A stretch of 28,834 bases of DNA from a virus. The position numbers and the translations under genes are program-made. The stretch spans positions 1 through 28,834 of IMG/VR virus record IMGVR_UViG_3300012936_000118. One strand, given 5' to 3'. The notes under the pieces were generated by a model. It was not told the origin of the DNA. It searched no databases and saw only the letters and a list, made by a program, of their open reading frames with translations. Of this stretch, positions 1,541 to 24,950 are shown piece by piece; within the stretch, counting starts at the first letter, position 1, and the number at the start of each line of letters is the position of its first letter.

Positions 1541-2167
1541 TTATTGACTTAAAATTCTTTTAGTTGCGGCACGGACAAACATCCTCTGATTCTTGGGTAG
1601 TTTATCGTATGTCTCTAAGTCTAGAGACTCGCTTGTTGAAAAAGGTCTGCCCTTCACTCTAGTCATAAACTCCGCTTCCTTTCCAAACGAAAGGTCTCCC
1701 ACCTTCTCCTTTTGACCGTAACCTGGGAACTCTGCCTCGTTAGTGCCTAAGAGATAGGACCCCTTGCCTCCCTTTGGAATAATCAACACTGAGTCTTGAC
1801 AATACTTCTCTCCCAATGTAGCGATAGTCTGGATGAAAGACGGGTCGTCTTTTAAGTTCACACAAAACAAACTGTTCTCTTTTACCTCCATCGCCTTTGG
1901 GGTATCGAAGTCTTCAACATAAGAACCATCAACCTTTGTAACTCCGTATCCAGAACCAAGCAGAGTTGCCTTGAGGTCCCTGTTCCTGTTCATATTCTTT
2001 TCACCTTCTTCAGGCATTTCTGCATTATCTGTGCAGTTTCCCATGTCCATCAAGTCACCACGGAAAGCAGTCAAGATGGCGCAATCGTGATTCATGATAT
2101 GCTTCCTCACCCTACTTAAACCGGATTCGTTAATGAACTGCCTCCAACCTTCCATTATTAATTTCAT
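1541..2167 (-). CDS. Unknown protein with capsid-targeting-like leader and DUF3293-like body
   Basis: The 208-residue protein opens with MKLIMEGWRQFINES, nearly the same leader as the next upstream gene (2169-2495) and similar to 24396-24950. Such leaders, ending in a hydrophobic-x-Glu site, resemble the cleaved capsid-targeting sequences of T4 internal proteins. That is inference. The body has NRNRDLKATL near residue 60, a GSYVEDF turn, then ENSLFCVNL and YCQDSVLIIPKGG near 125, a pattern resembling the DUF3293 family of uncharacterised proteins. The start ATG at 2167 is preceded by AGGAAT at a suitable distance. The catalytic role, if any, is unknown. Confidence 0.72.
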   Translation of the reverse strand: MKLIMEGWRQFINESGLSRVRKHIMNHDCAILTAFRGDLMDMGNCTDNAEMPEEGEKNMNRNRDLKATLLGSGYGVTKVDGSYVEDFDTPKAMEVKENSLFCVNLKDDPSFIQTIATLGEKYCQDSVLIIPKGGKGSYLLGTNEAEFPGYGQKEKVGDLSFGKEAEFMTRVKGRPFSTSESLDLETYDKLPKNQRMFVRAATKRILSQ

Positions 2168-14313: not shown

Positions 14314-17300
14314 CTATGCTAATAACTTAAACATTTTTCTCACAGACCTTGTGCTGAATCCCCACTGAGCATCCCAGTTAAGTCTTGCCATGTAAGGTCT
14401 GTTGACGTGAACTCGATCAGTCTCTGGTTTGACACCCCAACACTTGATGGTATTTGTTTCAGAGTTTGAGTCAATAACTCTGACAAGATAATAATCTTTA
14501 CCATTCCGTGTCTTCTTTTTAATCACCTCTCTGGGGATGAACCAGACAACCTGCAAATCGGGATCGAACTCAGAGATCGGTGGGACATACATCTCATCCA
14601 ACTTTCTCATGATCTCTGGTCCCATAACAAGATTAATCGGGAACACTCCAGTTAAATCAACTAAATGCTGGATCTTTTCTTCTTCGGAGAAATCTCCCTC
14701 ATCCGCATAGTTTTCAATATTCTCTATTAAGTTCTTTTCCTTTCGAGGTCGATCAACCGCAACAGCAGACCAGAAATGCTTTAGACCTGTGAACCTGTCG
14801 TCTACCAAATCATTCAACGCCTGAGATCTAGTCAGAGCACATATAGTCTTTTTGTTCAACTTACTGTAAATGATGTCCTCGTTGAAGAGAAATTCCTCAA
14901 TCGTATTAAACGGTCTGTGGTCTAAGATCTGCTTGATTGCCGATTCACCGAGACCCTTAATGGAAGTCAGAGGTTGAATCAAAGTCTTTGTATCTTCCCC
15001 AATCTCCCAAACAGTTCCAGAAGTGTTTACATTGAGAGGAACAATGTCATACCCAAAAGACTTAACAGTATTAATTGCTCTTTCTTTTCTTGTCTCTGGT
15101 TCTTTGTCTAAGAACGCTGCTAACCAACATTCAGGATAGTAATTGAACAACCAGGCACACTGATAAGACAAGATGCAGTAAGACACCGCATGAGACTTGT
15201 TAAAACCATAACCTGAAAAGTACTCAAAGGTCTGCCAAAGTTCCTGCGCTTGTGCTCTGGATATTCCCTTTTCCAAGCAACCATCCTTGAACTTGCACCA
15301 GATCTTATCCTTCTCTTCGGCGACAGCACCTGTCCCTTTCTTCGTCAACAACTTTCTAAGCTTGTTACCCTCATCTAGAGATAGGTTCTTACCTAACCTG
15401 TGAGCAAGCATTGCGATCTGTTCCTGAAAAATGAGGAAACCAAAAGTCTCTTCAGTAACCTCTCGAACGGTGTCGTTAAGATAATAAACGTCTTCTGGGT
15501 TTTCCTTTGCCGCAACGTACTTATCGTGAACATTCGCAGACAAAGGACCTGGTCTGTAAATCGAAGTGATCGCCGCTAACTCAATAATATTATTTGGTTT
15601 TGCCTGCTCGCAGAACTTTTGTGCTCCAGTCTCTGTGAACTGGAAGATACCTGCCCACTTACCTGCATGGAATACGTTCTCCCAAACCTCTTTGTCGTTC
15701 AAGTCCATCTTTTCAGAATGAAGTTGTTCTTCGTAGAAATGCCTTACATCATCGAAGGATGGGTCAGGATTGTTATGATAACGCTTCAACACATGACGAA
15801 TGGCACCTTCGATCATTCTCAAAGAAGCAAGACCAAGAATATCAAACTTAATAAAACCCATAGGTTCAAGATGTCTAACGTTCTGCCCCTCAGACCAAGG
15901 AGTTTGCCTCACACCCTTACTGTTGATTAGAGGCATCCATTGGTCTAGGTTTTCCCCAACTACGACACCGCCTGCGTGTCTTGAAGCAGATCTAGTCTGA
16001 CCATACAGTGCATTGATGTGTGTCTTGATGTGTGGATACTTCTTGAGAAACCCCTGTAGTGTTTCAGAGTATTCCATCAACTCCTCAAAAGTAGGATTGT
16101 AAACACCAGCAGTGATGCCGTGTGCCTTCTTTGCCAACGGGGTTGCCTCGTGAAGCATCTTGCCTGTTACAAGATTTACTTCATTAAAAGGAACTCCATA
16201 AAACTTTGAAATGTCTTTCACTAAAGATCTTAGTTGCAAAGTGTTCCAGTTGGTAATAGGGACCACAGTAGTGTCTCCCCATGCCTCAACAAGTTCCTCT
16301 TTCAACTTCATTGGTTCAGCAGTATCAAAATCAATATCAGGATAACCAGAACCACCTTTTGTCAAGAAACGCTCAAATTGAAGTCCGTAACGGATCGGAT
16401 CGACTTGGGTAATACCCAAGGCATAGGCGACCAAAGAACCCGCCGCAGAACCGCGTCCTGCGCCTGTGAGTTGTGTTTTAGAAGCACGATCTGCTATCGC
16501 TTTCATAGTTAAGAAATACTTTGAAAAACCTCTGTTCTCAATGATATCTACTTCATACTTAAGTCTCTCAACATACTCAGTCTTATTCGCAAACCCTCTA
16601 AGTTTAGCACCCTCAATACAATAACTCGCAAGTGCTTGTTCTGCTGTGTATCCATCAGGAACCACAAAATCAGGAAGACGGACTGTGCTATCTGGATAGA
16701 AGGATTCGATTCTTTCATGCGCGATGTGATGAGTTCGTTCAATAGATGCCCTAATCAGATCATCGTCATACTCCGCTCCACATTCAGCAGAATACTTTTT
16801 ATAACTCTCCCACATCTGATCGCCGTTCTTGGGATAGAGTTCGTAACCAATCTCCTCAACAGACATTGGGATCTCATCTGACAGGTAATCTGGTTTACTC
16901 TTTCCTAACCAACCGAGGCGCTTATATAGTTCTCGGTCCTTCCAAGCGTCAGGAGAATAGTAGTGACTATCTGCTGTAGAAATCAACTCGATGCCGAACT
17001 CGTAATGCATTTGAATAATATAATGATTTAGTTCATGTTGTTCGGGTACATTATTCCACTGCAACTCACCATACCATCTATCACCAAAAATAGATTGCAT
17101 CTTCTGTGTAGTCTTGCGCATTGCATCCACAATGGCATCTGGACCACTATCTCGATTGTTCCAGTAGTCTTGTGCGTATGTGCCGCCGAGACAAGCACTA
17201 GCGGCGATGATGCCCTCGTTGTGCTTCTTGAGCATTGCATAGTCAACGCGAGGAAACCGATAGTAGTTGTCTCCTGTGTACGACCTTGAGATCATCTTGA

Positions 17301-17751
17301 AGAGATTCTTTAGACCAGTCTGGTTCTGGGCGAGAAGAATGAGATGTCCGCGCCTGTTAAGAATTGACTTGTTCTTCTTTTTTGATTCCTCATTCTCAAC
17401 TGTTGCGCCGGACTGGAGGTCGTCGTATTGTGATTTGTTCTTTGCCTCTGCGCGGATCTCATCGTAATCCTGCTTCCACTTCGCCACGGATGGTAAAAAG
17501 TAAACTTCACATCCATAGATAGGTTTGAAGTTCTTTCCTTCTTTCTGCATCTTTTTGGCGTGCAGCACTTGATATGCTAAACCATTTGCATTGCCATGGT
17601 CGGTTAGAGCGAGGGCATCCATACCGTTTTCATAAGCAAAGTCCATATGCTGCTGGGGATACCCCATTGCATCAAATATTGACCCTGCTACAGAATGAGC
17701 ATGAAGACCAACAAAAGGAATGCTTGGAGTCTCTCTAGTTGCCGTAGTCAT
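14314..17751 (-). CDS. dnaE: DNA polymerase III alpha subunit (C-family replicative polymerase)
   Basis: 1145 residues, close to the E. coli DnaE length. The N-terminal PHP domain keeps likely metal ligands HAHS (His17, His19), TDHGN (Asp51, His52), GCEVYF, SACLGG and TADSHYY. The palm has GAGRGSAAGSLVAYALGIT (430-448), PDIDFD (Asp472, Asp474) and IKFDILGL (Asp637), so the catalytic triad is complete. The helix-hairpin-helix region (LTSIKGLGESAIKQI) and a C-terminal OB-like domain (about 1040-1110) are also present. It should be the phage's own replicative polymerase, working with the DnaB-type helicase at 27093-28472. Carrying a full DnaE rather than a family A or B polymerase is uncommon among characterised phages. 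GGGAG precedes the ATG. Confidence 0.97.
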   Translation of the reverse strand: MTTATRETPSIPFVGLHAHSVAGSIFDAMGYPQQHMDFAYENGMDALALTDHGNANGLAYQVLHAKKMQKEGKNFKPIYGCEVYFLPSVAKWKQDYDEIRAEAKNKSQYDDLQSGATVENEESKKKNKSILNRRGHLILLAQNQTGLKNLFKMISRSYTGDNYYRFPRVDYAMLKKHNEGIIAASACLGGTYAQDYWNNRDSGPDAIVDAMRKTTQKMQSIFGDRWYGELQWNNVPEQHELNHYIIQMHYEFGIELISTADSHYYSPDAWKDRELYKRLGWLGKSKPDYLSDEIPMSVEEIGYELYPKNGDQMWESYKKYSAECGAEYDDDLIRASIERTHHIAHERIESFYPDSTVRLPDFVVPDGYTAEQALASYCIEGAKLRGFANKTEYVERLKYEVDIIENRGFSKYFLTMKAIADRASKTQLTGAGRGSAAGSLVAYALGITQVDPIRYGLQFERFLTKGGSGYPDIDFDTAEPMKLKEELVEAWGDTTVVPITNWNTLQLRSLVKDISKFYGVPFNEVNLVTGKMLHEATPLAKKAHGITAGVYNPTFEELMEYSETLQGFLKKYPHIKTHINALYGQTRSASRHAGGVVVGENLDQWMPLINSKGVRQTPWSEGQNVRHLEPMGFIKFDILGLASLRMIEGAIRHVLKRYHNNPDPSFDDVRHFYEEQLHSEKMDLNDKEVWENVFHAGKWAGIFQFTETGAQKFCEQAKPNNIIELAAITSIYRPGPLSANVHDKYVAAKENPEDVYYLNDTVREVTEETFGFLIFQEQIAMLAHRLGKNLSLDEGNKLRKLLTKKGTGAVAEEKDKIWCKFKDGCLEKGISRAQAQELWQTFEYFSGYGFNKSHAVSYCILSYQCAWLFNYYPECWLAAFLDKEPETRKERAINTVKSFGYDIVPLNVNTSGTVWEIGEDTKTLIQPLTSIKGLGESAIKQILDHRPFNTIEEFLFNEDIIYSKLNKKTICALTRSQALNDLVDDRFTGLKHFWSAVAVDRPRKEKNLIENIENYADEGDFSEEEKIQHLVDLTGVFPINLVMGPEIMRKLDEMYVPPISEFDPDLQVVWFIPREVIKKKTRNGKDYYLVRVIDSNSETNTIKCWGVKPETDRVHVNRPYMARLNWDAQWGFSTRSVRKMFKLLA

Positions 17752-17968
17752 TCAACACTCCCTCCAGATCAGTTTTAATATTGTGTAAATCATTTAACAG
17801 TTCTTGCATGCTCTCTCTTTCTGGTTGTGCTGCATAGTAAATAAGATCTTCTAAAAAATTCAGTTCTCCAGTTGTAAGATTCTCAAACCTCACTGAGAAA
17901 CCTGCATCCTCTTTAATGTAGTAAGGTACTCTGCTGTACACTTCATGAAGGTTTACTTTGTTTTTCAT
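17735..17968 (-). CDS. Unknown acidic small protein
   Basis: About 77 residues from the ATG at 17968; in-frame ATGs at 17977 and 17992 are alternatives inside the upstream gene. It contains YSRVPYYIKEDAGFSVRFEN, then GELNFLEDLIYYA and a helical acidic C-terminus (MQELLNDLHNIKTDLEGVL). No known family. It overlaps the start of dnaE by 17 bases, so it is translated with it. Confidence 0.6.
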   Translation of the reverse strand: MKNKVNLHEVYSRVPYYIKEDAGFSVRFENLTTGELNFLEDLIYYAAQPERESMQELLNDLHNIKTDLEGVLNDYGN

Positions 17969-18854
17969 CTGCTTCATTCTCCAATTCTTCAAATTTAATC
18001 TTTCCGTAAGACTTATAAGTCAAGTACCTACCAACCGGAGCATACGACTTGGAGGCAACATCCGAGTTCATATATACCACATAACTGTCCCAACTGTCAA
18101 TAGGATAGTACTCTTTTGTTTCAATTTTATTTGTTTTAAGGTTTGCAATTGGATGGTATATATCTTTTAGAGAAAAGTCTTTTGAAGACCATCGATCCGA
18201 AGCAGACATCTCTCTACTACCTCCTGTGCAGTTTTGCTTGACCTCTGTTAGATAAAGCTTGTATTCTTCTGCATCAAAAGTAAATGGCAAGTATAGACCG
18301 TCTGCCACACTCTTCCCTTTGTATGTGACCACAGTGGGTTTGGAAGATCTGATCAAAGATCTGTTTCCTGAGATCTCGTAAGGTGGCAGTACTGCACAAG
18401 GGAATGAAACAAAGTACCTGTCAGGATTTAACCACTTAGACATACGACTGCTCATCAAAAACGCAGTTAAAGCACCGTGCAATATGGACCAACCCAGACT
18501 GTCTCTCCTGTCCCTATCCTTTGGATGGATTGGAGTATAGAAAATAGGTATTCTCTTTTTGTCATCAGAATGATTGCTTGTTCGACTATTGGATTCTACA
18601 GAACGAGTATCGTATAACCAATCCCCTAATCTATGTTTTATCAAAGGTTGAACATCATCATTGCAAACTATCCAGATCGTATTACAACCTGCTGTTGAAC
18701 ACTCAATGACACTTCTCTCAATAGCGGTGTAACATTTCCCAATCTGTGTTAGACTGGGATCCCAAGGCATTTCAAGTCCAGCAGGCAAACCAGCGACTGG
18801 GATGATGCCCGCCAAGTGAAACCCACTGGTTCTGTCTTCATGGAGTTTTTCCAT
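17943..18854 (-). CDS. Nucleotidyltransferase-like (GT-A fold) protein
   Basis: 303 residues from the ATG at 18854 (AAGGG upstream; the frame extends one TTG codon further). The N-terminal part GFHLAGIIPVAGLPAGLEMP, then KCYTAIERSVIE and GCNTIWIVCNDD follows the beta-loop-helix-beta plan of sugar-nucleotide and other nucleotidyltransferases, though the usual GxGTR loop is replaced by PVAGLP. Further on are TPIHPKDRDRRDSLGWSILHG and YFVSFPCAVLPPYE. Similar proteins are familiar to me from marine phages without assigned function. It overlaps the Rossmann-like gene by 17 bases, suggesting the two act together. Confidence 0.65.
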   Translation of the reverse strand: MEKLHEDRTSGFHLAGIIPVAGLPAGLEMPWDPSLTQIGKCYTAIERSVIECSTAGCNTIWIVCNDDVQPLIKHRLGDWLYDTRSVESNSRTSNHSDDKKRIPIFYTPIHPKDRDRRDSLGWSILHGALTAFLMSSRMSKWLNPDRYFVSFPCAVLPPYEISGNRSLIRSSKPTVVTYKGKSVADGLYLPFTFDAEEYKLYLTEVKQNCTGGSREMSASDRWSSKDFSLKDIYHPIANLKTNKIETKEYYPIDSWDSYVVYMNSDVASKSYAPVGRYLTYKSYGKIKFEELENEADEKQSKPS

Positions 18855-19614
18855 CAAAAATATCCCTTAAAGTAATGTTACTGCAAAAATGAATCTTATC
18901 AGTTGAACGATACATGTTCTTAGATATTAGTTCCTTTTCTCTCAAGGTAGGGCGCATCCTGACTTTGTATCTGTGAGCAATGCCCTTCTTATCGTAATAC
19001 GAGACTCGCCCCTTAACTCCACCCTCGGTTAGGTGATATCTTGTTTTGAACACTGCCATTGTATCAGAATAATCAAACTCTGTCAACTGATCTTCTCTTA
19101 AATAAGAGACCGCTGCTATGTCTTTGAACGTTTTGTTTCCGTCTATTCTATCAGAGATGTAGAAAATAATATCGTTAATGAAATCATCACCAGTCTTGAT
19201 TCTGTCTTGATTGTGAGGTTCACACCTATCTACAGAAAACCAATCCACTACACGATAAAGTTTCTCGGATTTGTTCAATAGGTCCAGAGTATGGTTAACA
19301 CCGTTTTCGGTTTCAAACAAAAAGCATTGGTCATATTCTATATCTGTGACACTGGTGTTGTTGTGGACTACACGTATCTTATCTTCATCAACCGTGACCT
19401 GGTTAACTGAATCATAGAAAGGATTCAAACCATCTAGTCCAAGTGCCCATAGGTCTTTTGACCACATCTCTAATTCTGGTGTTTCATCGAATGTATCAAA
19501 TCGAAAAGGATATTCATCGTTTGGTATAACGATTGGTATCTTCTTTTTTCTTGCAAAAGAAACGGCAGCGGTGGAAGAACCCACCACTACCTTTTTGTGC
19601 CTCATCTTTTTCAT
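18838..19614 (-). CDS. Unknown protein with Rossmann-like N-terminus
   Basis: 258 residues from the ATG at 19614, which overlaps the VWA gene stop as ATGA. The N-terminus HKKVVVGSSTAAVSFARKKK, then IPIVIPNDEYPFRFD looks like the first beta-alpha-beta of a dinucleotide-binding fold with an altered glycine loop (GSSTAA). The middle has VVDWFSVDRCEPH, FYISDRIDGN and EFDYSDTMAVF. No catalytic motif is clear; an oxidoreductase or a sugar-modifying enzyme is possible. It is paired with the nucleotidyltransferase-like gene 17943-18854. Confidence 0.6.
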   Translation of the reverse strand: MKKMRHKKVVVGSSTAAVSFARKKKIPIVIPNDEYPFRFDTFDETPELEMWSKDLWALGLDGLNPFYDSVNQVTVDEDKIRVVHNNTSVTDIEYDQCFLFETENGVNHTLDLLNKSEKLYRVVDWFSVDRCEPHNQDRIKTGDDFINDIIFYISDRIDGNKTFKDIAAVSYLREDQLTEFDYSDTMAVFKTRYHLTEGGVKGRVSYYDKKGIAHRYKVRMRPTLREKELISKNMYRSTDKIHFCSNITLRDIFDGKTP

Positions 19615-21863
19615 TCGACTTGCGGGATACACAATCCTAAATTGTAATCATAAGGATAGTGGTTAACAGTAAAGTATTGGTTCACAAAATTGTACCCTAG
19701 AGATCGAAGACCACCTAGTTGCTCAACTTGATTTATCTCCTCTTCCTCCTCTCTAGGCAGACATGCCTGGTCGATAATGGTCATCAAGTCATTGTACATA
19801 GTGACAGGGTCTCTGGTTAAAAAGAAGTCCATACCACCTGTCTCCAGCGCTCTTTCATCCCAGTCATAGAACTTAGGGGCAAAAGTGTGCAATACCGTTT
19901 TGCTGGCGTTGGTCAGTGCTGTCCTCAAGTCATCTCGATCAACAGGTGGTTCAAGAAAACTTTGAGACGCCTCGTCGCTAAAGACAATGATTATCCGATC
20001 TGTACCGGGTCTCCAATTGATAACAAATTCATTTAATCGAGGTTCTGAACCAATTCCTTGCACCCAATCCCTTCCTGCTAAATCAACCTCACCACTAAGA
20101 TTTCTAAGTGACAAATACACCGCATCTCTCAACATCTCCTGACCTCCGGGATCATAATCAACTGCTGCAAACCTAGCAAGAAAATCCTCAAAGGGAGAGA
20201 TATTTGAAACTATACGAAGCATCTCCCTATGACCGCCTCCATTGAGCATGACGTCGGTTGGTCCGATTACCAAACCCCAGTGGATCGCATCCTCTGCATC
20301 AAAGTGCTGGGCGAACCGTGACAAAGCAACGAACACCGCCTGGATCTCTTCCCTCATAGAACCGCTGACGTCTACGATTAAAAGAATGTCTGTATCCGCA
20401 ACCTCTTCTCCATAATCAACCTCACCATCACAGTCATCGTCTGCCCCATTGCAAATCTCTCTTGAAGGAATTATTTCTCCTCCGCACAAATCTTCTACAA
20501 AATTAATGTTGTCATCATCCGCTCCCCAACGACCCTCAGAACAGTATTGAACTCCATCGGTGCATATGCCCACGCCAAGAGTTTCTGGTTCCCCAGTGTA
20601 ACAATCCCTGGTCAAACCCTCATCGTTCATCTCATCGCAATCTTCGTCAAAAGCGTTGCACGTCTCTATCTCTAGTGCCTGACCCATGCCTGGGTGACAT
20701 TCTACGTTAGGAGGAGGTTCGAAAAAGACACATGCCGCCAAACAGGGGGTCATCTCCATTTCGGTGCAGTCAACATCAATGCACTGGCATGTCTTAAATC
20801 CTGATCCGCAGATCAAGGGAGGTTCTGCACAAGGGAACAACACTCCAACTTGATCTACTGTACAGAGGCAATCCAACCCGTCATCAATGAATCCATTGCA
20901 ATCATTATCGAAACCATCACAAATCTCTTCAATTGGCGCACGAGCAGAGCAAGAATTCCATCTACCACCGATGCAAGTCTCGATCCCTCTTTCGCATAAT
21001 GTCTCGCACTCTCTAACTAGATCTTCGTCTGTGTTGCCGTCACAGTCGTTGTCCTCACCGTCGCAGACCTCATTCGGCAGTGGTCCACATTGACCACATG
21101 CATTTTCCTGTCCTTCGTCTACTGTGCCGTCACAATCATTGTCAACTAAGTCACAAACTTCTTCGCCTTGGTTTGGAGAAATACAATCAGTTACCACACC
21201 CTCTCGACAGATCCCAATACCAGGACCACAAGGTCCTTCACAAACTACAGGATCTTCATCCACTCGACTGTCACAATCATTGTCCTGATTATCACACAGT
21301 TCAGGTTCACAGGCAATACAAGGACCATGCATGATCTCACCCTTGTCACACAAGACTCTTTGTTGCCCTTGACGACCATCAGGTAATTGGCACTCAAACC
21401 AACGCAAAAATTCCCGCGAAGTACCGGGAGGGCATTCGTGTGCCACTTCACAAGGACTTTGATAAATTATTTCTGGAGGTGGACATTGAGGGTCAGTACC
21501 AAACTCGCACTGCTCCTCACTCTCATTACAGACCTCAACAACCACCAACATTGACTGAATTGAATTATCTGGGGTTGGAGGACAAAACCACTCCTGCCTT
21601 GAACAGCACTGTGGAAAACAGGTACAATACGCCTGGTAGTTGTCCACCGTAACCTCTTCGCATGAATTAACTTGAGGTGCTGCATCTTGCTTCAAGGCAT
21701 CTCTGGGAGGAGAACGGTCAATATAAGAAACCTCTGGTCCATAATCAATAGAAGTAACATCACTAATTCTATTAAGGTCTTCAGATTGCTCCCTCTTTAG
21801 TGATTCGTCTTCGCACGAGATCAGGACCAGTGACCCAATCAAAACTGCCAACCTAACATCCAT
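19611..21863 (-). CDS. Large lipoprotein with MopE-like Cys/Asp repeats and a VWA domain
   Basis: 750 residues from the ATG at 21863 (AGGATGG just upstream; 11-base overlap with the transglycosylase gene). The signal peptide MDVRLAVLIGSLVLISC ends in a lipobox with Cys17. The next 470 residues are Cys-rich and carry six repeats of the type CDGxDNDCDGxxDEG (about 190, 237, 267, 315, 402, 471), the putative metal-binding MopE motif. Residues 492-700 form a von Willebrand A domain with MIDAS DVSGS (498-502) and VFSDEAS (627-633). It would be lipid-anchored in the envelope, likely calcium-binding, and mediate adhesion or sense the surface. This is a host-like secreted protein type, suggesting acquisition from a Myxococcota/Bradymonadota-like bacterium. 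Confidence 0.9.
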   Translation of the reverse strand: MDVRLAVLIGSLVLISCEDESLKREQSEDLNRISDVTSIDYGPEVSYIDRSPPRDALKQDAAPQVNSCEEVTVDNYQAYCTCFPQCCSRQEWFCPPTPDNSIQSMLVVVEVCNESEEQCEFGTDPQCPPPEIIYQSPCEVAHECPPGTSREFLRWFECQLPDGRQGQQRVLCDKGEIMHGPCIACEPELCDNQDNDCDSRVDEDPVVCEGPCGPGIGICREGVVTDCISPNQGEEVCDLVDNDCDGTVDEGQENACGQCGPLPNEVCDGEDNDCDGNTDEDLVRECETLCERGIETCIGGRWNSCSARAPIEEICDGFDNDCNGFIDDGLDCLCTVDQVGVLFPCAEPPLICGSGFKTCQCIDVDCTEMEMTPCLAACVFFEPPPNVECHPGMGQALEIETCNAFDEDCDEMNDEGLTRDCYTGEPETLGVGICTDGVQYCSEGRWGADDDNINFVEDLCGGEIIPSREICNGADDDCDGEVDYGEEVADTDILLIVDVSGSMREEIQAVFVALSRFAQHFDAEDAIHWGLVIGPTDVMLNGGGHREMLRIVSNISPFEDFLARFAAVDYDPGGQEMLRDAVYLSLRNLSGEVDLAGRDWVQGIGSEPRLNEFVINWRPGTDRIIIVFSDEASQSFLEPPVDRDDLRTALTNASKTVLHTFAPKFYDWDERALETGGMDFFLTRDPVTMYNDLMTIIDQACLPREEEEEINQVEQLGGLRSLGYNFVNQYFTVNHYPYDYNLGLCIPQVE

Positions 21864-22335
21864 CCTGCAACAACTCCCACAATGTTTTAACTTTTGTAAC
21901 ATATTTCATCCTTTTATATTTGAACCCCTTCCTTAGACATATTGTCCCTGCGTTGTAATAGCAAATTCCCTTGTCTATATCTCCCTTTGCATATACCCTA
22001 ATTGAATAAGAAAGGACTTGTGCACCAACTCTAATTGAGGTTCTTGGTCTTTTAAGTTGCTCACAAGTATACTTTTTTCTTTTAGTCTCTCTGCCGCCTG
22101 TCCACTTAGGAATCACCTGGGTTAATCCGCAGGCACCTGCTGAACTCTCTGCTCTTGGAAAATAAGAACTTTCAACGAATATCATTGCGCCCAAAAGATA
22201 GGGATCTATGTCGTTACGACTCGCCTCTCTCTCAATTGTTTTTTCATACTTGCAAACCATCCTCACCTGATAGTCGCTCATAGAAGGATATATCACCGGG
22301 AACATGGCGCATAAGGAAAGAAAGGTTGAGGACAT
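21853..22335 (-). CDS. Lytic transglycosylase (SLT domain)
   Basis: 160 residues with an N-terminal hydrophobic stretch (STFLSLCAMFPVIYPSM), probably a signal peptide. The catalytic domain shows AMIFVESSYFPRAESS with the catalytic Glu55, GACGLTQVIP (67-76) and CYYNAG (125-130), the three hallmarks of goose-lysozyme-like soluble transglycosylases. It cleaves the glycan strands of peptidoglycan with anhydro-muramic ends. It may be the endolysin or a virion-associated cell-wall enzyme; no holin is recognised beside it. The ATG shares a base with the upstream TAA (TAATG), and the next gene encodes the VWA lipoprotein. Confidence 0.9.
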   Translation of the reverse strand: MSSTFLSLCAMFPVIYPSMSDYQVRMVCKYEKTIEREASRNDIDPYLLGAMIFVESSYFPRAESSAGACGLTQVIPKWTGGRETKRKKYTCEQLKRPRTSIRVGAQVLSYSIRVYAKGDIDKGICYYNAGTICLRKGFKYKRMKYVTKVKTLWELLQDGC

Positions 22336-22751
22336 TATTTTTCCTTACTGCTCGCAACAAGGTCTGAACTGCTTTGAATTTTGCCACCGCCGATGTTCCA
22401 CATGAGTTCGATCCCCAAACTATTACACAAAGAAACTTCAGGAGTGTTGTCCCCCTTTCTATCACCACCGTTTGCAAATGCGTCTGGGCGGCATCTTGAA
22501 ATTGCTTCGCACACGGTATTGTCTGAGTCATCCACCTTTTCGACGCGATAAACACCACGGATAGATCGAATAATTTCTGCTCTCTCTTCCCATGGCATAA
22601 AGACATAACCCTTCTTTCTCATCAACCAATCATCAGAGTTAGCAACTACGATGACTGGTCCGTGCTTAGATGCCTCTAGGATCATTCTGACGTGACCTAC
22701 ATGGATTGGGTCGAACCCACCTGAAACCATTACTTTCTTCATCTTATTCAT
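22335..22751 (-). CDS. Cytidylyltransferase-family enzyme (HldE C-terminal / TagD-like)
   Basis: 138 residues. The N-terminal motif GGFDPIHVGHVRMI holds the HxGH signature (17-20), followed by VVANSDDW, PWEERAEIIRSIRGV and a C-terminal QSSSDLV, the usual ISSS/T element. These features define the small nucleotidyltransferases that activate phospho-sugars or glycerol phosphate with CTP or ATP (HldE/RfaE C-domain, TagD, PaaD types). The acceptor cannot be read from sequence. It might make a precursor for cell-surface or DNA modification together with the nucleotidyltransferase-like gene at 17943-18854. GGAG is 5 bp before the ATG at 22751. Confidence 0.88.
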   Translation of the reverse strand: MNKMKKVMVSGGFDPIHVGHVRMILEASKHGPVIVVANSDDWLMRKKGYVFMPWEERAEIIRSIRGVYRVEKVDDSDNTVCEAISRCRPDAFANGGDRKGDNTPEVSLCNSLGIELMWNIGGGKIQSSSDLVASSKEK

Positions 22752-23460
22752 TCCTGCTCCTGTATGCTCTTACAGACTCTGGAAAGTGCTTTTCTGCAAT
22801 CTCCAAGCAAGCATCAGCAACTCTTTGAATCTCCCATTGAGCGCCTTCGTGAGACCTCAAAGAAACAAACTTCAAAAGGTTGTGCAGGTTTGCTGTCCCA
22901 AAGTATTGGGTGTATAAGTTCTGAGGAAGCACTCCTCTTGCTTGCTCTCTGCAAACTCCAGACTCGATCAACTGCTCATACAGTCTCAAACTTTTTTGGT
23001 TGTGGTTCTCCACTGCATCAGAAGCAAGATAACTTGGGACAGATACCTGGAACTCTCCAACATTTGAAATGCCATTGTTTAAGTCTGGATTGACTAGACT
23101 GTCCGTACTTGCCTGTCGATTTGATTTATGCTGGGTTCTAAACTCTTTAGGCGAGTAGAACTGCATATCTACAGAAGTATATCGACGACTAATTTCGTTA
23201 TACGCCCAAGTACGATGACGATGGTGCTGACTCCGAATAAACAAAGGAACAGTAAAGCGCATTGTAATAGCACAATGCTCAAATGGACTAGTGTGGTTGT
23301 GCTTAATAAGGTAGTTAATAAGTTTAATATCTTTCTCATCTACACTATCCTTCTCTGCTCCAAAAGAAACCCTAGCAGAGTTAACCACAGACAAGTCGCT
23401 TCCCATATGGGAAACGTACTCTACTGAACCAATGCCATCATTATATAGATCAATTTTCAT
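22744..23460 (-). CDS. thyX: Flavin-dependent thymidylate synthase ThyX
   Basis: 238 residues from the ATG at 23460 (GGAA 5 bp before it; a TTG one codon earlier is less likely). It makes dTMP from dUMP using FAD, NADPH and methylene-tetrahydrofolate. The signature is RHRTWAYNEISRRY (usual RHRxxSxNExSxRY; Ser replaced by Ala). Also present are NSARVSFGAE, NHTSPFEHCAITMRF and CREQARGVLPQ with the dUMP-binding Arg/Gln. The dUTPase at 13226-13678 supplies the dUMP. It overlaps groES by 11 bases and the next gene by 8. Confidence 0.97.
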   Translation of the reverse strand: MKIDLYNDGIGSVEYVSHMGSDLSVVNSARVSFGAEKDSVDEKDIKLINYLIKHNHTSPFEHCAITMRFTVPLFIRSQHHRHRTWAYNEISRRYTSVDMQFYSPKEFRTQHKSNRQASTDSLVNPDLNNGISNVGEFQVSVPSYLASDAVENHNQKSLRLYEQLIESGVCREQARGVLPQNLYTQYFGTANLHNLLKFVSLRSHEGAQWEIQRVADACLEIAEKHFPESVRAYRSRNE

Positions 23461-23764
23461 CAATATTCCGCAAAATTCCTACGACATAGTTTTCCAAAAT
23501 CAAACAGTGAGTCTTGTCGTTCACCTTAACTTCTTCAAGCATAGAGTTGTCAACAACGACAACCTTTGATCCCACACTTGATGTAGAGAGGTTCAAGAAC
23601 TGCTTTGAACAATCAACAGACACATCAACAACTGTTGCTAATGCATACTTCTCTCTGTTGGTGGTATACCCCTCTGGCAACAGAACCCCTGTTTGCTCTT
23701 CTTGCTTTTCTTCCTTGTGGGGGATAACCAACAAGTGCCTATTAACTGGTTTTAGTTTTGTCAT
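23450..23764 (-). CDS. groES: Co-chaperonin GroES
   Basis: 104 residues from the ATG at 23764 (AGGTG 6 bp upstream; a GTG three codons earlier is possible). It aligns with GroES: LKPVNRHLLVIPHKE (core strand), then the mobile loop with TGVLLPEG, where the hydrophobic triplet corresponds to IVL that inserts into GroEL, then ALATVVDVSV, VGSKVVVVD and ILENYVVGIL. The overall similarity is remote, as with T4 gp31. It should cap the phage GroEL (6612-8165) or the host GroEL. It sits in the DNA-metabolism operon, not with groEL. Confidence 0.88.
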   Translation of the reverse strand: MTKLKPVNRHLLVIPHKEEKQEEQTGVLLPEGYTTNREKYALATVVDVSVDCSKQFLNLSTSSVGSKVVVVDNSMLEEVKVNDKTHCLILENYVVGILRNIDEN

Positions 23765-24091: not shown

Positions 24092-24399
24092 GAACTTTTT
24101 AAATTTTCTTGGTATTGCTTGATCTGATTCAAGGTTGATAGTTCCTTGTTAAGATCAATAGTGCGGATCTTATCGACACGGTACTCCTCCAATCTTATAG
24201 TTTTGGATTCGCCCGATTTGTTTCTAAGTTTGTCTGTCTTCTTTACACAATGCTCATATGCCTCATCACTGAACCACTTGACTTGTGCGTAAGACCAAGG
24301 GATGGGAATCCCTTGGTCTTCCTTCACGTAAATGTTTGTTACGACTCCGTATCTTCTGATTTTATGATACTCGTTATATACAACGTCTCCTACCTTCAT
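24088..24399 (-). CDS. Small SH3-like protein
   Basis: 103 residues: MKVGDVVYNEYHKIRRYGVV, then TNIYVKEDQG, then WSYAQVKWFSDEAYEHC, the pattern of a small barrel as in three other genes of this window. The rest is a charged helical tail. No function is recognised. The ATG overlaps the upstream stop as ATGA; GAGGAAG precedes it. Confidence 0.72.
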   Translation of the reverse strand: MKVGDVVYNEYHKIRRYGVVTNIYVKEDQGIPIPWSYAQVKWFSDEAYEHCVKKTDKLRNKSGESKTIRLEEYRVDKIRTIDLNKELSTLNQIKQYQENLKSS

Positions 24400-24950
24400 T
24401 CTTCCTCACTTTCTTTTTGTTTGTTGGCAGTCACTTTTTCAAACCAAACCACGACTTGAGTGTCCCCACCATGAATAGTATAATATACTCCACGATACTT
24501 TTTAGCACCTTCTTCACGAATTGGTTTAAAATATTTTGCATACTCTGGATTCTCAGGTGGTAGGTCCTCCAGCATTAGCGATTTAAAAATCTTTGTATAA
24601 TCTGGTCTTGTTTGTCCCAATGCTTTTTTCGATTTAGACAAGAGGTCTTCAGGATCCTCCATTAAATTATAAATGTCAGATGCATCTACAGAAGCAACAA
24701 ACAAGTTACGGTGTTGACTCTTGACTATGTTTTCCGCTTCTTCTGGGTCAACATAAAAGAACACTCTTGGATAGGCAGATACCCTGTAGTCATTTCTAGA
24801 GTACGCTCCTCTTTTTGATAAGAAGAACTCTGGATCTAAGACAATCTGATCTTCTTTAGCAGAAGAGTAGTGATACAATTTCATAGCGCCACTACTCTTC
24901 GGACTTTCATTGAGAAGATACTTTTTCCATTTTTCCAAAATCTTCTTCAT
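24396..24950 (-). CDS. Putative packaged protein with capsid-targeting-like leader and ART-like core
   Basis: 184 residues. The leader MKKILEKWKKYLLNES parallels those at 1541-2167 and 2169-2495. The core has KLYHYSSAKEDQ (24-35), YSRNDYRVSAYPRVFFYVDP (51-70), EEAENIV, and YYTIHGGDTQVVVWFEKV near the end. The order YHYSS, then a loop, then PRVFFYVDPEEA is reminiscent of ADP-ribosyltransferase-like folds, but no full H-Y-E or R-S-E triad can be assigned by eye. If right, it would recall T4 Alt, an ADP-ribosyltransferase injected with the DNA. A plain hypothetical protein is the safe call. AGAGGA precedes the ATG. Confidence 0.6.
   Translation of the reverse strand: MKKILEKWKKYLLNESPKSSGAMKLYHYSSAKEDQIVLDPEFFLSKRGAYSRNDYRVSAYPRVFFYVDPEEAENIVKSQHRNLFVASVDASDIYNLMEDPEDLLSKSKKALGQTRPDYTKIFKSLMLEDLPPENPEYAKYFKPIREEGAKKYRGVYYTIHGGDTQVVVWFEKVTANKQKESEEE

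Follow-up and report, generated by a model that had tools for sequence, protein, structure and literature searches.

A widespread family of VWA and MopE-repeat lipoproteins of large uncultured marine phages, with a possible role at the envelope of the infected cell

Introduction

Most of the phage lipoproteins described so far belong either to the spanins or to small proteins of exclusion. Phage genomes rarely encode lipoproteins, and the o-spanins, such as Rz1 of lambda and PseT.3 of T4, are examples that carry a lipobox (PMC6139136). Llp of phage T5, described as small, is an outer-membrane lipoprotein that acts in superinfection exclusion (PMC9586334). Two bacterial proteins are also relevant here: CglB of Myxococcus xanthus, a motility protein and cell-surface adhesin that is a lipoprotein with a VWA domain (PMC12288465, PMC11752065), and MopE of Methylococcus capsulatus, a cell-surface protein (PMC3423442) whose known function is to bind copper via two histidines and a kynurenine.

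Here we describe LIPO, a protein encoded in a 28,834-nucleotide stretch of an IMG/VR virus record (IMGVR_UViG_3300012936_000118; hereafter the window), which resembles each of these proteins in part. It shares CDxxDxDC-type repeats with MopE and scores over the cut-off of the corresponding Pfam family; however, MopE's solved copper domain is not shared, since the LIPO family profile matched no PDB chain at E 0.01. Like CglB it appears to be a VWA-domain surface lipoprotein, a likeness drawn from the description of CglB and not from its sequence. Like Llp it is a phage-encoded lipoprotein that would act on the infected cell from a predicted outer-membrane location, but it possesses a VWA head and repeats. 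With the o-spanins it has in common the lipobox and, in some loci, a position adjoining a transglycosylase gene and an Rz-like gene, whereas its domain structure is much larger, it usually lies in a replication operon, and in the window, where the lytic transglycosylase (SLT) gene is present, neither an Rz-like nor an i-spanin gene sits beside it to form a pair. LIPO thus appears to be a kind of phage-encoded envelope lipoprotein outside the MopE, CglB, Llp and spanin families, CglB again being judged by description.

Domain architecture of LIPO

The original prediction was of a 750-residue lipoprotein with six repeats and a VWA domain, and this description is borne out; the gene, whose strand had not been named, is on the minus strand and starts with ATG (Table 1). 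A second in-frame ATG is found at 21902, and the signal peptide begins at 21863 instead. The lipobox reads LISC followed by E, a bacterial-type lipoprotein signal with the cysteine at residue 17, and this cysteine is kept in all 40 aligned members that were used for conservation counts. The residue following it is Asp in only 2 of the 40 and another residue in 38, which predicts sorting to the outer membrane, if the rule of E. coli, which may not be that of the host, is applied.

The protein contains 54 cysteines. Its six CDxxDxDC-type repeats were located by motif at residues 190, 237, 267, 315, 402, and 471, and five stretches scored against PF11617 (Cu-binding_MopE; E 7.6e-19, 68.1 bits against a cut-off of 27). 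An AlphaFold2 model built with 40 family members had a mean pLDDT of 82.8, rising above 90 across most of the VWA part, and a Foldseek search of the PDB with this model returned VWA and integrin domains, the best being VWFA2 of collagen VII (E 2.6e-7). It is because of the model and these matches that we assign the VWA domain, as the Pfam VWA score was under its cut-off (15.7 bits vs. 23.8); the modeled region is predicted to have a VWA fold. The usual MIDAS motif is DxSxS...T...D. LIPO has a candidate MIDAS-type site in which DxSxS and D630 are present in 40 of 40 members, with an invariant E576 near the usual Thr position, as the alignment was read by eye; overall, D498, S500, S502, E576, D630, and E631 are identical in every one of the 40 proteins.

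Table 1. Coordinates of LIPO, its parts, and other features (positions in the window unless a contig is named)
Feature	Position	Strand	Basis or remark
LIPO, VWA/MopE-repeat lipoprotein gene, 750 aa	19611..21863	-	ORF call, Pfam, AlphaFold2
LIPO signal peptide MDVRLAVLIGSLVLIS and lipobox cysteine C17	21813..21863	-	sequence; Cys in 40/40 members
Disordered linker, residues 18-64	21672..21812	-	pLDDT <50
Cys-rich N-terminal domain, residues 65-186, phage family only	21306..21671	-	alignments; none in bacterial loci
MopE repeat 1, CDNQDNDCD	21270..21296	-	Pfam and motif
MopE repeat 2, CDLVDNDCD	21129..21155	-	Pfam and motif
MopE repeat 3, CDGEDNDCD	21039..21065	-	Pfam and motif
MopE repeat 4, CDGFDNDCN	20895..20921	-	Pfam and motif
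MopE-like repeat 5, CNAFDEDCD	20634..20660	-	motif
MopE repeat 6, CNGADDDCD	20427..20453	-	Pfam and motif
VWA domain, residues 490-702; DVSGS 498-502, SDE 629-631	19758..20396	-	model, Foldseek, motif
C-terminal tail, mostly disordered, one Cys	19614..19757	-	model and alignment
SLT lytic transglycosylase, hydrophobic N-terminus	21853..22335	-	PF01464 E 3.4e-15; PHROG endolysin/transglycosylase
Nucleotidyltransferase, HldE-like, upstream of LIPO	22335-22751		PF01467
ThyX-like gene (named from sequence), upstream neighbor in most loci	22744..23463	-	synteny
Downstream gene (Ross), Rossmann-like by eye	18838..19632	-	synteny in 62 loci
NTase, nucleotidyltransferase-like by eye	17943..18857	-	synteny in 61 loci
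DnaE-type DNA polymerase, backbone marker	14314..17751	-	PHROG E 2.5e-218
Small Cys-rich lipoprotein, 79 aa	1251..1490	-	homologs directly upstream of LIPO in L055, L072
Tagged proteins	1541-2167, 2169-2522, 24396-24950	-	shared N-terminal tag
Trypsin-like serine protease lipoproteins	L086; L088 7844-8605; G022 152334-153098; G014 60851-61603		

A family of phage proteins

When IMG/VR was scanned, a single-protein query recovered 5 viral loci and an alignment query 317 phage loci; among the best 80 of the 317, most LIPO relatives were nearly full length with 38–58% identity. No match at E 0.01 was obtained with LIPO proteins as queries against 50,697 records of isolate phages, and the PHROGs contained no relative, consistent with the earlier view that this predicted lipoprotein, though phage-encoded, is not a known phage part. 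The only strong viral structural match was BFVD A0A516KYY5 (E 8.1e-20, 27% identity over 314 alignment columns), which has 266 residues vs. the 750 of LIPO and no recorded name or function. A literature search found no description of such a phage protein; its domains are known, but neither the libraries nor the literature searched contained a widespread family of phage lipoproteins that combines VWA and MopE repeats. As judged from the sequences, LIPO is a large family of its own, deep and widespread in phages, and not a stray host gene. The carriers are large uncultured ocean viruses of bacteria, hundreds of which have LIPO.

The contig is that of a phage, encoding DnaE, a DnaB-like helicase, RNR, GroEL, and a ClpP-type head protease, and the alternative raised with the original prediction, a fragment of a bacterial chromosome, does not apply; nor are the homologs restricted to tail-fiber contexts, the other observation that would have counted against it. 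Coupling of LIPO to its neighbors had also been proposed, and the overlaps are real: the upstream SLT gene overlaps the LIPO start by 11 nt and the LIPO end overlaps the downstream gene by 22 nt. The names Rossmann and nucleotidyltransferase proposed for the two downstream genes are unverified, as neither gene (Ross, NTase) had a Pfam match at E 0.01.

Genomic position and exchange of alleles

Approximately 60 loci have the common order RNR-c13-GroES-ThyX-(SLT)-LIPO-Ross-NTase-DnaE, a nucleotide/replication operon in which SLT is variably present. With the window DnaE as query we collected 80 loci and counted the occupants of the LIPO slot by hand, near-duplicates included: where DnaE was at least 74% identical, LIPO was present in 30 of the 30 loci with the slot sequenced (a divergent form in four), and in sister loci, with DnaE 65–70% identical, the slot was without LIPO in 37, some having an SLT gene in it. 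We considered whether the sister phages lack LIPO altogether; this does not hold for their two longest contigs, which have the gene at another position, so that LIPO moves but persists. Among contigs of at least 60 kb selected by DnaE, 10 of 11 have LIPO, and one of 95 kb (L212) shows none; an impression that every large contig has it came mostly from contigs picked for having it. Tandem LIPO copies were seen in L033/G020 (L266 4453-9079; L265), and a 267-kb contig (G030) encodes several MopE-repeat proteins, one with a C-terminal TM.

In pairwise comparisons of up to 37 dereplicated loci, LIPO distances correlated weakly with those of DnaB, c13, Ross, NTase, and DnaE (rho 0.16–0.27), whereas these five correlated with each other at rho 0.73–0.90. 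The decoupling of LIPO from its flanking backbone leads us to conclude that its alleles are exchanged between phages. Individual phages give the same picture. The window DnaE falls with W-type phages, in a set of 14 rows with support of 100 of which the other 13 have a W-type LIPO, and the window LIPO groups with the non-W type (support 99). Similarly, L029 and L045 are sisters by DnaE (99) with LIPOs from different clades. A further locus, L071, is 97% identical to L075 in its upstream part and 99.9% identical to L080 in its downstream part, with the junction inside LIPO; this may be a recombinant or an assembly chimera, and as the latter is possible we do not take L071 alone as proof of exchange. 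Exchange among phages at a fixed place is thus what the sequences indicate, and it is not unique to LIPO, because GuaB, dUTPase, RNR, and ThyX likewise follow the backbone poorly (LIPO vs. ThyX distances, rho 0.51).

Purifying selection acts on the gene, with a whole-gene dN/dS of 0.01–0.21 in the six pairs for which dS was computable (dS was saturated in three pairs). In four diverged pairs (71–78% identical) dN of the VWA domain exceeded that of the middle region by a factor of 1.8–2.1; in L002/L004 and L060/L064, which are close pairs, the VWA domain was no faster.

A possible role in envelope exclusion

The envelope-type role suggested in the original prediction fits these features, and the reading that we tentatively place first, while rating its chances somewhat below even, is that LIPO is a receptor-blocking or superinfection-exclusion protein of the envelope. 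The type II signal peptide with its invariant cysteine would lead to lipidation of LIPO and its sorting to the outer membrane, and the infected cell would display the protein in its envelope. There, a disordered tether would carry a cysteine-rich stalk whose acidic, metal-binding-type repeats may bind calcium, and the VWA head would bind a host envelope protein via its MIDAS-type metal site. The phage receptor would in consequence be occluded or altered, or the envelope otherwise closed, so that the cell is not reinfected, and alleles of LIPO would suit the host or competing phages. A location in the replication operon fits expression before lysis, and it is this position, together with the allele exchange and the faster-changing head in diverged pairs, that makes us favor a role in host interaction, for parts of which Llp and CglB offer precedents by analogy. 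Several points count against exclusion. The best-known exclusion lipoproteins are small; LIPO is not the only gene that is exchanged; the head is not faster in close pairs; and exclusion does not predict the lysis-like neighbors that LIPO has in several contexts.

Neighboring genes and a possible role in lysis

Those neighbors suggest a second role, in which LIPO would be the outer-membrane partner of a lysis module, a lipoprotein of very large size, o-spanin-like or accessory, that helps to breach or destabilize the outer membrane after the transglycosylase has cut the wall. The association of LIPO with genes for lysis of the wall and outer membrane speaks for it. Outside the operon, LIPO is accompanied by SLT, Rz-like spanins, DUF5658 proteins with three TMs, small Cys-rich lipoproteins, and a trypsin-like lipoprotein, and in 49 representative loci, which are related to each other and not independent, SLT made up 7 of 192 genes within two positions of LIPO vs. 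1 of 667 at four or more positions (p 1.7e-4). SLT is overlapped by LIPO in the window, and is close to it in L061 and L063 although the DnaE operon is absent there; in L004, SLT, an Rz-like spanin (PHROG E 2.3e-4), and LIPO follow in series, and in the sister contigs G010 and G014 LIPO is near DUF5658 and Rz-like proteins (PHROG E 4.4e-4 and 3e-3). However, most canonical loci have neither SLT nor a spanin beside LIPO, and the Rz-like pairing is confined to L002–L005 and, loosely, G010/G014, in the latter of which separate small lipoproteins adjoin the Rz-like gene. In the same 49 loci small genes with an N-terminal TM were not significantly enriched (p 0.42), all envelope classes pooled gave p 0.09, and no single class other than SLT was enriched at p 0.05. 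Moreover, we know of no spanin with an integrin-like head. We consider a lysis role rather unlikely, albeit the main rival to exclusion.

Other genes recur in these surroundings. Genes for trypsin-like serine protease lipoproteins adjoin LIPO in L086 and lie at most two genes away from it in L088 (Table 1), and a HELVHH-type metalloprotease-like protein, with a sub-threshold Pfam match to DUF6647, is found near LIPO in L084, L089–L092, and L263. Downstream of DnaE in L004 (16809-17456), a 216-residue protein has similarity to an endolysin family (PHROG 33083, E 2e-8), and related sequence is found in 55 loci.

Less likely readings: adhesion, host origin and packaging

It is also conceivable, if improbable, that LIPO is an adhesin that sticks infected cells to surfaces, particles, or other cells. 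CglB of Myxococcus is a precedent for a surface VWA lipoprotein of this kind, the integrin-like fold matches, and the model includes a flexible tether and stalk; against this, the likeness to CglB is drawn from its description, and a phage would have no obvious advantage from adhesion.

The original prediction regarded LIPO as typical of the surface proteins of Myxococcota-like bacteria and as a pointer to the host group; on this view it would be an accessory gene taken up from such a host. A genome scan did identify 372 bacterial loci with relatives, the best 80 of them mostly from Myxococcota or Deltaproteobacteria, and Polyangium has separate Cys-rich VWA lipoproteins (L270). The bacterial relatives, however, align with LIPO over the repeats alone. 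A model of the N-terminal domain had no match in the ORFs of the 80 best bacterial loci, and the VWA model had weak matches only, and at best such matches in each of three draws of genomes searched for a bacterial source: a Myxococcota-centered draw of 284, a second of 189 that overlaps it within the same group and is not independent, and one of 146 that had no positive control. All matches in these draws were weak and partial at best; the Polyangium VWA lipoprotein likewise gave a weak partial VWA match (E 9.4e-6). As only the repeats are held in common, they do not identify a host; on the sequences compared, a Myxococcota host or origin for LIPO is not shown, the use of the repeats as a pointer to the host group finds no support, and for a gene that is deep and widespread among phages capture from such a host is very improbable.

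Several otherwise unrelated proteins have in common an N-terminal tag like MKLIMENWRKFLNE (three in the window, two in G022, and six in G014), which from its sequence may direct packaged proteins to the capsid. One of the three in the window (1541-2167) matches the S-adenosylmethionine lyase family (PF23780, E 2.7e-11) and is possibly a co-injected anti-restriction enzyme. In G014 the LIPO gene forms part of a stretch of genes for such tagged proteins, but LIPO has a lipoprotein signal in place of the tag and most of its contexts are not structural, which makes a virion or injected component the least probable role of all.

Implications

LIPO occurs in hundreds of phage contigs and is unmatched in the isolate phages searched. 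It is possible, and we say so with some reserve, that an undescribed family of giant lipoproteins, widespread among marine phages and built of an integrin-like VWA head on a stalk stabilized by disulfides and calcium, controls the outer surface of the infected cell, with alleles traded to suit hosts or competitors. LIPO may in this way control the encounters of the infected cell with its surroundings or with other viruses. If this is true, an integrin-headed lipoprotein of ~700 residues would represent a new route by which phages act on the cell envelope, and LIPO offers a concrete target for learning by what means the abundant phages of the ocean keep a cell from being reinfected or breach its outer membrane.
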